From the NCBI GenBank assembly GCA_020846025.1, contig JADLER010000008.1, forward strand, positions 1 through 43,600: a stretch of 43,600 nucleotides of DNA, written 5' to 3'. Below are positions 28,422-31,262 of the stretch, piece after piece; position 1 is the first letter of the stretch, and every line of letters starts with the position of its first letter. The notes beneath the pieces were generated by a model. That model saw only the letters and a list, made by a program, of their open reading frames with translations. It was not told where the DNA came from and searched no databases. The position numbers and the translations under genes are program-made. This stretch comes from Bacteroidia bacterium. Its GTDB lineage: Bacteria; Bacteroidota; Bacteroidia; B-17B0; Aurantibacillaceae.

Positions 28422-30071
28422 CTATGCTTCACAACTCACACAATTTACCAAATTCTGAACTGCAATTTCTTTAGATACACTTTGGCTACGTTGATAATAC
28501 AAGGTTTTAATACCTAATCTCCATGCCTCAATCATTAGTTTATTAACTTCTTTTACAGGTAAATTAGCTGGAATATTTAGATTTAAACTTTGTGATTGAT
28601 CAATGAATTTTTGACGGATAGAGGCTTGTTGAATAATCTCTAGCTGACTAATCTCTTTGAATGTTTTAAACACCGCTTTTTCTTCTTCTGATAATTCTAC
28701 CAAATGTTGTACGCTACCTTGATTAAGCATAATCCCTCTCCAAGTTTCTTCATTATCAATTCCTTTTTTTTGTAATAAGGCTTGTAAATATTTATTCTTG
28801 CGAATAAAGTTGCCTTTAGATAATCCAGCTTTAAAATAATTACTACTATAAGGTTCTATCCCTGGCGATGTTTGTCCTAATATAGCTGATGAAGAAGTGG
28901 TTGGTGCCACTGCTAATAAAGTTGTGTTTCTTAATCCATAATCTTTTAAGACTTCTGGTTCACCATAAATTTCAGATAAACGAGCAGAGGCTTTATTAGC
29001 TTCCTCTCTTATGTTTTCAAAAATTGATTTCGTTAGTTGTTTAGAGCGTAATCCCTCAAAAGGAATCATGTTTTTTTGAAGATACGAATGCCAACCCATT
29101 ACACCTAAACCAATAGCACGATGACGTTTTGCAAAACGATTGGCTGATTGTAGATAATAATTTCCTTCTGTTTTAGCAATAAACTCTTGTAATACCGCAT
29201 CTAAGAAATAAATTGCCATTTGCACTGCTTTTGTATCTTTCCACTCATCATACAACTCTAAATTCATAGATGATAGGCAACAAATAAACGACTCATCAAA
29301 ACTGGATGGTAACATTATCTCTGCACAAAGATTACTTGCATTAATACTCATACTTTTATCTTTATACACCTGAGGCTTATTAGTATTTACATTATCAGTA
29401 AAAAACACATAAGGCATTCCTTTTTGTTGACGAGCCTCTAACACCTTGGCCCAAATTTCTCGTTTTTCTTTATCTCCTTCTATCATTTCGTGCATCCAGT
29501 AATCGGGTACACACACGCCAAAAAATAGATTTTGTAATGGATTACCAATATCTTTTATTTGAAGAAACTCATTAATATCTGGATGGTCAATATCTAAATA
29601 AGCTGCAAAAGCTCCACGACGCACACCTCCCTGTGAGATGGTGTCCATAGCTGTATCAAACAATTTCATAAATGAAACCGCCCCACTACTTTGTCCATTA
29701 TCAGTAACCGCGCTTCCTCGTCCTCGCAATTCACCAAAATATCCAGAAGTACCTCCACCTATTTTTGTTTGCATAATTACCTCTCCTAGTTTATGAGTAA
29801 TTCCTTCTATATTATCTGGTACATGAACATTAAAACAAGATATTGGTAGGCCACGCTCAGTTCCCATGTTTGCCCATATTGGTGAACTTAAACTCATCCA
29901 GCCATTTTCAATTAGTTCAATAAAAGCTTCTTTTAGCTCGGGTTTATAAAGACGTTTACTTGCCGCCGTTGCGATTCTGTCTATGGCGCCTTTTACTGAT
30001 TCGCCTTTAAGAAGATAACCTCTGTTTAAAATTTGCTCACTCTCTTCGTTGAGCCACCATAATCTGTTCAT
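28422..30071 (-). CDS. nrdA: Class I ribonucleoside-diphosphate reductase, alpha subunit (no ATP-cone)
   Basis: The 549-aa catalytic subunit shows the first redox Cys at C79 (ISCFNVH), the finger-loop NxCxE as N247-L-C249-A-E251, and a second Cys pair at C264/C265. It also has the radical-path tyrosines in KTLYYQRSQ and the C-terminal thioredoxin-reducible C544-x2-C547 (CVSCEA). The protein begins directly in the catalytic part (MNRLWWLNEESEQIL), so the N-terminal ATP-cone that gives dATP inhibition is absent. That explains why it is about 200 residues shorter than E. coli NrdA. It is encoded 21 bp downstream of nrdB, under the B12 riboswitch at 31150-31262. It makes deoxyribonucleotides without needing B12. 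Confidence 0.95.
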   Translation of the reverse strand: MNRLWWLNEESEQILNRGYLLKGESVKGAIDRIATAASKRLYKPELKEAFIELIENGWMSLSSPIWANMGTERGLPISCFNVHVPDNIEGITHKLGEVIMQTKIGGGTSGYFGELRGRGSAVTDNGQSSGAVSFMKLFDTAMDTISQGGVRRGAFAAYLDIDHPDINEFLQIKDIGNPLQNLFFGVCVPDYWMHEMIEGDKEKREIWAKVLEARQQKGMPYVFFTDNVNTNKPQVYKDKSMSINASNLCAEIMLPSSFDESFICCLSSMNLELYDEWKDTKAVQMAIYFLDAVLQEFIAKTEGNYYLQSANRFAKRHRAIGLGVMGWHSYLQKNMIPFEGLRSKQLTKSIFENIREEANKASARLSEIYGEPEVLKDYGLRNTTLLAVAPTTSSSAILGQTSPGIEPYSSNYFKAGLSKGNFIRKNKYLQALLQKKGIDNEETWRGIMLNQGSVQHLVELSEEEKAVFKTFKEISQLEIIQQASIRQKFIDQSQSLNLNIPANLPVKEVNKLMIEAWRLGIKTLYYQRSQSVSKEIAVQNLVNCVSCEA

Positions 30072-30092: not shown

Positions 30093-31046
30093 TTAAAATA
30101 AATCTGCTGCACTAATGCTTTTATCGTGTTTGGTATAAGCTGTTGGTCGTTTTGCAAAAAAATCATCAAGTTCATTTGCAAACACATCTTCCTCAAACCA
30201 CTTCATGGGTTTGTATTGTTCGTATGTAATATTAAATATTTTTTTAAGTTTTATTTTCTCCATAGATTCATCTACACGGTATTTCATAAAATTGAGCATA
30301 TCGTTTTTTGAAAAGAAACTCAATTCTCCTTTTTCATAGATCCAATTCAATAATTCTTCTTCGTACTGAATATAGTTCTTTACATCTTGCGACATGCGCT
30401 CCTTAATTTCATTAGTTAAATAGCCTTCCTCTGCCAACTTATTTAAAATAAAAATTCCAGCATTGGCATGTGTTTGTTCGTCTATCGAAGTCCATGCAAT
30501 AATATTAGATGTGTTTTTTAAATATCCTTTAAATCGCGTAAAAGACAAAATATTTGCGAACTGAGAAAACAATGAGGCGTTCTCAATTACAATTGTAAAA
30601 AATAGCAATTTAGAAATCACATCATTATTAGCATATAAACTATTTTCAATAAGTTCAAGTTTCTTTTTAAATACAGGAATAGTAAGTAATTGATTAAACT
30701 CTTCATTATATCCCAAAACATCTAACAAGCGAGAATAAGCTTCGCTGTGTCTAAATTCACATTCTGCAAAGGTTGCTCCTAGTCCATTAAACTCTGGCTT
30801 TGGAAAATATTTATAAATATCGCCCCAAAATAACTTTACACCAACCTCAACTTGCGCAATACTTAATAAGCTTCGTTTTACAATTTCTTTTTCAACCTCC
30901 GATAAATTTGATTTAAAGTCTTGGATGTCGGCTGTAAATTCTACCTCTTTATGAACCCAAAAGGTTTTATTCATTAAGTCAGTAAATTCTAATACCTCAG
31001 GGTATTCAAATGGTTTATAGTGTACGCGTTTGTCAAAAATGCCCAT
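30093..31046 (-). CDS. nrdB: Class I ribonucleoside-diphosphate reductase, beta (radical-generating) subunit
   Basis: The 317-aa ferritin-like protein carries the metal ligands E67 (QVEVGVKLF), E97 and H100 (ECEFRH), E155 (VIENAS), E190 and H193 (DEQTH). The radical Tyr is Y104, seven residues after E97, as E115-H118-Y122 are in E. coli. The first ligand is Glu where E. coli NrdB has Asp84, as also seen in some other beta subunits. There is no N-terminal ATP-cone of the kind found in NrdB of some Flavobacteriia. The gene order is beta before alpha. Its 5' UTR of about 100-220 nt contains an adenosylcobalamin riboswitch and a terminator-like hairpin, so expression is expected to fall when B12 is abundant. 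Confidence 0.96.
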   Translation of the reverse strand: MGIFDKRVHYKPFEYPEVLEFTDLMNKTFWVHKEVEFTADIQDFKSNLSEVEKEIVKRSLLSIAQVEVGVKLFWGDIYKYFPKPEFNGLGATFAECEFRHSEAYSRLLDVLGYNEEFNQLLTIPVFKKKLELIENSLYANNDVISKLLFFTIVIENASLFSQFANILSFTRFKGYLKNTSNIIAWTSIDEQTHANAGIFILNKLAEEGYLTNEIKERMSQDVKNYIQYEEELLNWIYEKGELSFFSKNDMLNFMKYRVDESMEKIKLKKIFNITYEQYKPMKWFEEDVFANELDDFFAKRPTAYTKHDKSISAADLF

Positions 31047-31095: not shown

Positions 31096-31115
31096 AAAGA
31101 AATAGTCATTTCTTT
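31096..31115 (-). terminator. Terminator-like hairpin between the B12 aptamer and nrdB
   Basis: On the minus strand AAAGAAAT and ATTTCTTT form a perfect 8-bp stem with loop GACT, followed by further Ts (31098-31094 read as T). It lies about 35 nt after the aptamer and 50 nt before the nrdB ATG. It could be the expression platform, but the stem is AT-only apart from one pair, so it is weak. Confidence 0.45.
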
Positions 31116-31149
31116 GAACCTCGTTTTTTATGCGAAAACAAAATTCAAA

Positions 31150-31262
31150 CTGATTTGGCAGGTAATCTGACTTTGGTTTATTATACCATTCACAGTTGCG
31201 CAACAGTTCAGGAATTTCACCTGATTCCCCTATTCTCTGTTTATTCAGTACTTATTTAAACA
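31150..31262 (-). promoter_or_regulatory. Adenosylcobalamin (B12) riboswitch controlling nrdBA
   Basis: Read on the minus strand, the segment contains the conserved B12-element blocks in order: GGGGAAT, AGGTGAAATTCCT (31226-31210), CTGTTGCGCAACTGTGA (the CCCCGCAACTGT block, with the changed first bases) and finally AAGTCAGATTACCTGCC (the B12 box, 31173-31157). The TCAGG...CCTGA flanks of the TGAAATT loop pair as expected. The outer boundaries are approximate; the 5' side may reach about 31290. Its orientation and position put it in the nrdB leader. Class I reductase operons under B12 riboswitches are known in Streptomyces, where a B12-dependent class II enzyme is the alternative. Confidence 0.88.

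Follow-up and report, generated by a model that had tools for sequence, protein, structure and literature searches.

The nrdBA leader in the stretch analysed here is likely to work as a cobalamin riboswitch: with ample cobalamin it would reduce production of the B12-independent class Id ribonucleotide reductase, and dNTPs would then be supplied by the B12-dependent reductase NrdJ. A wider reading, on which we are evenly balanced, is that one cobalamin riboswitch across Bacteroidia families trades cobalt-dependent NrdJ against the manganese/superoxide class Id enzyme, being present where both are encoded and mostly absent where NrdJ is not; that its L13 loop either kisses L5 or captures a segment that would close the start; and that this is the first B12-controlled class Id reductase. 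The stretch (the window, 43,600 nt) is contig C8 in the draft genome of a Bacteroidia bacterium; the draft measures 3.24 Mb in 241 contigs and is 92% complete with 6.4% contamination.

A cmscan of the whole window gave a single match at the gathering threshold, RF00174 Cobalamin at 31283-31140 on the minus strand, 93 nt upstream of nrdB. The match scored 46.2 bits against a cut-off of 31.5 (E 1.4e-8, computed for 43.6 kb against 4227 families), in agreement with the preliminary description, which had placed a B12 riboswitch in the minus-strand leader of nrdBA. The interval proposed there, 31096-31262, misses 21 nt on the 5' side but rightly takes in the P13 hairpin, which is part of the switch; the switch itself extends past P13 to about 31077. 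The aptamer is of the short form. Its core and P5 are present, with the P13 hairpin after the core, but the peripheral P8-P12 domain of the long form is absent, 64 model positions being represented by 11 nt in the Rfam alignment. The P5 stem lies at 31208-31224 (minus strand) and carries loop L5 (UGAAAUU, 31219-31213), presumably, by analogy with known corrinoid riboswitches, the kissing partner of L13. RNAalifold on eight leaders gave the P13 hairpin at 31116-31146 (minus strand), with its 5' strand at 31146-31135, the L13 loop at 31134-31128 (CGCAUAA) and its 3' strand at 31127-31116.

The fold is not evident from the window copy by itself. Unconstrained folding of the window leader did not give the aptamer fold, and the leader is barely more stable than its shuffles (z -1.55, with 12 of 200 shuffles at least as good). 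The match is also weaker than those of the two other cobalamin riboswitches in the genome (102.5 and 82.7 bits), which by eye have a P8-P12 region. It is the relatives that argue against a chance match, as a cobalamin aptamer precedes a homologous nrdB in 11 further distinct genomes; 11 of the 12 leaders reach an Rfam cut-off, the exception being L044, with 27.7 bits against 31.5. Among 13 leaders, these 12 plus L131, in an alignment that was fitted to the model, 16 of the 31 model pairs have changed on both sides and 95.3% of pairs are standard. None of 500 shuffles reached 16 such pairs, and slid versions gave 2 to 5. Both sides have changed in four of the five P5 pairs and ten of the 12 P13 pairs.

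Cobalamin would be the bound ligand, but which form is less certain. The window copy was reported as RF00174, and the relatives L013, L041, L043 and L127 as AdoCbl-II (RF01689). Given these four calls and the short form, adenosylcobalamin is no more than the putative ligand. A genuine aptamer that senses methyl- or hydroxocobalamin, or cobamides generally, is a substantial if lesser possibility, in keeping with the missing P8-P12 region and the RF01689 relatives; some AdoCbl-II members prefer methyl- or hydroxocobalamin. The RF00174 assignment of the window copy itself speaks against it. Moreover, NrdJ uses adenosylcobalamin as its cofactor and the genome encodes a cob(I)alamin adenosyltransferase (213 bits), so adenosylcobalamin would be the logical signal.

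The genes behind the leader are both intact and separated by 21 nt. NrdB (30093-31046, minus strand, 317 aa; PF00268, 190 bits) is the class Id (NrdBi) radical-generating subunit, and NrdA (28422-30071, minus strand, 549 aa; TIGR02510, 706 bits; PRK09102, 756 bits) a catalytic subunit in which Pfam finds only the two Ribonuc_red_lg domains and no ATP cone. The closest solved chain to NrdA is 6dqw (1035 bits) and that to NrdB is 6cwo (E 1.9e-130), the class Id NrdB of Flavobacterium johnsoniae (PMC6754362). The class Id signature, in F. johnsoniae numbering, is described as a Tyr/Glu pair, Lys71, Tyr104 and Thr191 (PMC8463856). Window NrdB has E67, K71, Y104 and T186, where T186 corresponds to Thr191 because the protein is five residues shorter before it, through a deletion, and E67 is in our reading the Glu ligand meant. 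Judged by closest structures and signature residues, NrdBA is class Id, the dimanganese, superoxide-activated kind, and the switch would thus control a manganese/superoxide-type reductase. The preliminary description had called the enzyme a B12-independent class I reductase, but it is not the generic oxygen-dependent one supposed there. The F. johnsoniae enzyme, the closest solved relative of NrdB, shares the Tyr/Glu, Lys71 and Thr191 signature and the missing ATP cone, but no B12 control is mentioned in the excerpts of PMC8463856 and PMC6754362.

The preliminary description was aware of no characterised case in Bacteroidota; the arrangement proved to be a recurring module there and not a single case. 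Named genomes were scanned, which yielded 288 stretches that encode a relative, and the best 80 NrdB loci were retained. A cobalamin aptamer precedes nrdB in L040 (the same as L011), L041, L043, L044, L045 and L046, and also in L013 of genome G038. A leader model built from eight leaders was then run with strict filters on 395 genomes of the class and matched 47 of them (48 matches, of which the 30 made into loci were inspected). The eight best matches (67 to 133 bits) all precede a class Id nrdB. Four of these are leaders used to build the model, and four are new (G253, G379, G260 and G133), each reaching an Rfam cut-off independently. With duplicates removed (G237 is L045, G361 is L044 and G014 is L040), the module is carried by 12 distinct genomes; those with a family label belong to six families, so that at least six are represented.

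Class Id reductases also occur without the riboswitch. A class Id NrdB above 550 bits was found in 12 genomes of the class sample, eight with the riboswitch and four without. In another 76 class Id loci the leader model matched nothing ahead of nrdB, and this holds for the Weeksellaceae loci searched with it; one weak match in L088 (E 0.043) lies elsewhere. An Rfam scan of 29 of the 76 (11 + 16 + 2) gave no cobalamin match at the cut-off. On an NrdB tree of 30 rows (12 with riboswitch, 17 without and one outgroup), explaining where the riboswitch occurs takes two or more changes on well-supported branches, and window NrdB belongs to a clade made up of seven riboswitch bearers and L042, which has none. 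L042 is from a Crocinitomicaceae genome with NrdJ, and a 198-aa ORF (L042:3392-3985, plus strand) ends there 12 nt before the class Id nrdB. This ORF weakly resembles the TSCPD domain (19.4 bits, short of the 22.8-bit cut-off), which is also known at NrdJ C-termini. A second class Id-like NrdB group (339-353 bits) was seen in six genomes of the class (L160-L165), with frames near 429 aa that probably include an extra N-terminal domain, and the fetched loci gave no cobalamin riboswitch match.

The common Bacteroidota NrdB is only 22-25% identical to class Id NrdB, and one of the 16 such loci scanned (L032, genome G048) had a cobalamin riboswitch. This one (99.5 bits) and another that the leader model picked out at L131 (genome G421, 45.6 bits) lie before the common class I nrdB. 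As these genes are distantly related to class Id nrdB, the two are separate cases in which the regulatory logic recurs. The leader model also matched elsewhere. In three genomes (L130, L138 and L144) the match lies 84 to 424 nt before a gene that by eye resembles an acyl-CoA thioesterase, although a 45-residue fragment of it gave no Pfam match. In L136, L145, L146, L148 and L150 it lies, also by eye, upstream of MetE-like genes (starting LGYPRIG or LGYPRVG); MetE is the other classic B12-independent isozyme.

The genome search proposed in the preliminary description found NrdJ: it is encoded on another contig (C37:47106-48965) and scored 574.7 bits against a cut-off of 400, so a riboswitch before a B12-independent enzyme and the B12-dependent enzyme occur in one genome. 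The BtuB sought with it was found in part, as a TonB receptor behind another cobalamin riboswitch that is only BtuB-like (TIGR01779, 95.3 bits, below the cut-off of 599.7) and is accompanied by a DUF4465 surface protein. The genome's other strong cobalamin riboswitch (G000:C7:13543-13713, minus strand) precedes an uncharacterised type IX-sorted surface protein (L008:6511-7551). Similar protein openings, by eye, follow riboswitch matches in L132-L134, making this a candidate B12-related surface protein.

Searches of the draft source genome found no match to NrdD or to the common Bacteroidota NrdB. Five genomes of the same genus (G003, G004, G006, G011 and G013) show the reverse, with the common NrdB present and no NrdJ match that reaches the cut-off. 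In the relative G014 (97% complete, 1% contamination; NrdB 98% identical) NrdJ and the riboswitch again occur together, and contamination therefore does not explain their combination in the source draft.

The same association holds across the module. NrdJ is over the cut-off in all 12 riboswitch genomes and in three of the 19 class Id genomes without the riboswitch (G057, G062, G067-G081, G157 and G347), a difference whose Fisher p of 3e-6 is inflated by kinship, as Weeksellaceae make up over half of these 19. In the class sample alone NrdJ was found in 8/8 genomes with the riboswitch and 1/4 without (p 0.018), against a background of 216 of the 395 genomes. NrdJ is not sufficient for the riboswitch, as class Id genomes G062, G076 and G077 have NrdJ without it, and likewise G026, with NrdJ and the common NrdB. 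None of the 12 riboswitch genomes gave a match to NrdD or the common Bacteroidota NrdB, leaving NrdJ and NrdBA as the only reductases that the searches found in them. The logic first proposed from the window, that abundant B12 brings the class II enzyme into use and switches nrdBA off, thus gains computational support from the NrdJ found in all 12 genomes.

How might the aptamer reach the gene? Downstream of P13 is a segment, anti-L13 (31077-31093, minus strand), whose sequence complements L13 together with the 3' strand of P13. In the window it occupies -47 to -31 relative to the nrdB ATG, and in the other leaders it falls between about -58 and -26. No other part of the window spacer is predicted to form a better duplex with L13 (-12.7 kcal/mol; p 0.017 when compared with dinucleotide-shuffled spacers). 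The corresponding p was 0.023 in L041, 0.016 in L043, 0.057 in L045, 0.0003 in L013, 0.0013 in L125, 0.078 in L126, 0.84 in L127 and 0.019 in L128. The p is thus below 0.08 in eight of nine lineages and below 0.05 in six, with three above 0.05. Combined by Fisher's method, it is 2e-8 for the nine lineages and 8e-4 for the four not used for discovery (L125-L128), and permuting the L13s among the spacers gave p 2.5e-4. Between L044 and L045 there is a compensatory change in L13/anti-L13, GCACAAGG/CCUUGUGC in the one and GCAUAAGG/CCUUAUGC in the other. The leader of the BtuB-like gene in the same genome has the same pairing (p 0.007). The values for the nine lineages come from a 16-nt L13 query that includes the P13 3' strand; a shorter 12-nt query gave weak p (0.0075 to 0.92) and in the window and L040 selected the start region itself. 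RNAalifold on full leaders instead paired anti-L13 with the UAGGGG of the aptamer. Taken together, the comparisons make an alternative L13/anti-L13 pairing well supported as a prediction from the leader sequences.

Other elements of the leader were also considered. A 13-codon ORF between P13 and nrdB (31109-31068, minus strand; MTISFSLAFCVFV) was put aside as a leader peptide: it recurs in L040, with the same predicted product, but had no counterpart by eye in the other leaders inspected. The TAnnTTTG promoter motif matched only about 700 nt ahead of the nrdB start, and searching loosely for an NrdR box yielded a single weak match, at -405.

The most likely mechanism is that bound cobalamin locks L13 onto L5 and so frees anti-L13 to close the nrdB start. 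With cobalamin bound, L13 would kiss L5 and P13 would form; the released anti-L13 would then fold onto the nrdB start region and block ribosome entry (OFF). With no cobalamin, L13 would pair with anti-L13, leaving the start region open and nrdBA made (ON). Translation in Bacteroidota starts largely without Shine-Dalgarno pairing. In L044 and L045, anti-L13 can by eye also pair with the start region, GUGC/GCAC in the former and AUGC/GCAU in the latter.

Folding predictions lend this last step uneven support. The predicted cost of opening the region -15..+20 was higher with anti-L13 free in 11 of the 12 leaders (9.0 against 5.5 kcal/mol in the window). It was raised in seven of the first eight leaders, L043 showing no difference, and the four lineages tested last gave differences of 8.3, 8.5, 2.9 (L127) and 6.3 kcal/mol. 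As a control, equal-length blocks placed elsewhere did as well in 15/34 cases in the window and then in 3/34, 13/40, 12/49, 6/41, 8/43, 25/43 (L046) and 4/23 in the rest of the first eight, most of which thus fared poorly; three of the four tested last fared better (3/54, 1/65, 13/52 in L127 and 3/60). For the region -14..+5 there was no effect in the window, L040 or L043, and against shuffled upstream sequence only L041, L045, L046 and L013 were extreme (p 0.003-0.007), unlike the window (0.99), L040 (0.98), L043 (0.93) and L044 (0.43). The BtuB-like leader gave a start-region difference of 2.1 kcal/mol, with 3/44 blocks as good. The modelling thus supports a block of the start region in most relatives, and weakly in the window itself.

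A switch acting on transcription would use the same pairing differently: a terminator would arise downstream of P13 and before nrdB in the ligand-bound form, with L13/anti-L13 serving as the antiterminator. Transcriptional corrinoid riboswitches in which P13 competes with an antiterminator are described in PMC10653944, and by eye the AT-rich leaders have U-rich stretches after hairpins (in the window AAAGAAAU-GACU-AUUUCUUU, then UUUUUCCC). The GC-rich relatives L044-L046 have the same layout, however, and by eye no U tract after anti-L13, and we regard termination as unlikely. The same paper bears on the sign of the response. In an activating corrinoid riboswitch P13 and the terminator are mutually exclusive (PMC10653944), as P13 and the L13:anti-L13 hairpin would be here; were that hairpin the OFF structure, P13 stabilised by cobalamin would prevent it and B12 would raise nrdBA. 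Activation is nevertheless highly improbable. NrdJ in 12/12 genomes fits repression of a spare enzyme, the same pairing before the BtuB-like receptor points to a shared sign of response, repression by B12, and the cobamide riboswitches of B. thetaiotaomicron are described, in the excerpt of PMC8941943, as repressing. Expression of nrdBA would therefore fall with B12. A decayed riboswitch without function, which the modest score and several non-standard pairs in the Rfam alignment of the window copy might suggest, hardly fits an element that 12 genomes have retained, whose P5 and P13 show compensatory changes and whose L13 and anti-L13 match.

Control of a B12-independent reductase by B12 has precedents, established or predicted. 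Streptomyces, for one, has a class II NrdJ. The Streptomyces nrdABS cobalamin riboswitch is the subject of a 2006 study by Borovok, by whose title the enzyme is class Ia and control is transcriptional. Both there and here a B12 riboswitch lies in the leader of a class I reductase that does not need B12; the differences are that the Streptomyces case is class Ia, transcriptional and in Actinomycetota, whereas here the target is class Id, in Bacteroidota, and the platform probably a translational L13/anti-L13 pairing. The Streptomyces repression is cited in PMC8620254 and PMC5962746. The preliminary description had correctly named Streptomyces, but the arrangement is known more widely. Propionibacterium acnes has cobalamin riboswitches at nrdAB and nrdDG, and RNA-seq suggests that nrdAB transcription terminates early (PMC3848588); as excerpted, the logic proposed there is alike, B12-free reductases being down-regulated and NrdJ used, but the apparent early termination, the reductase classes and the phylum differ. 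B12 elements also precede nrdDG in the delta-proteobacteria D. vulgaris and Desulfuromonas, where NrdJ is also encoded (PMC545781), and nrdD in Chlorobium (PMC8620254), again before a B12-independent reductase but, from these excerpts, one of the NrdD type and not class I.

The proposed platform also has relatives. In P. megaterium metE and E. coli btuB/env8 an L5-L13 kissing loop stabilises P13 and an alternative platform pairing decides expression (PMC10653944, in part). In metE it is the terminator stem with which the 3' side of P13 pairs, whereas here L13 and the P13 3' side would pair with a downstream segment. A regulon survey places isozymes of B12-dependent enzymes in its cobalamin category (PMC3766115, excerpt). 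Among the matches listed in our literature searches, we found no B12 riboswitch described for class Id nrdB, nor for any class I reductase of Bacteroidota, and the excerpts of PMC2211319, a survey of metagenomes, and of PMC11575231, on B12 in Xylanibacter, show no nrd case. As B12-repressed B12-independent reductases were already known, nrdBA joins a known kind; what is fresh is that its target is class Id and lies in Bacteroidota.

Cells cannot do without ribonucleotide reduction, and in these bacteria the choice between an enzyme with a cobalt cofactor and one with a manganese cofactor seems to be set by one RNA element. The leader offers a testable example of an L13/anti-L13 switch in Bacteroidota. 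With neither NrdD nor the common NrdB found in them, the 12 genomes make a clean case, where the metal used for DNA synthesis should follow from the supply of B12, and this could explain why such Bacteroidota retain both enzymes.
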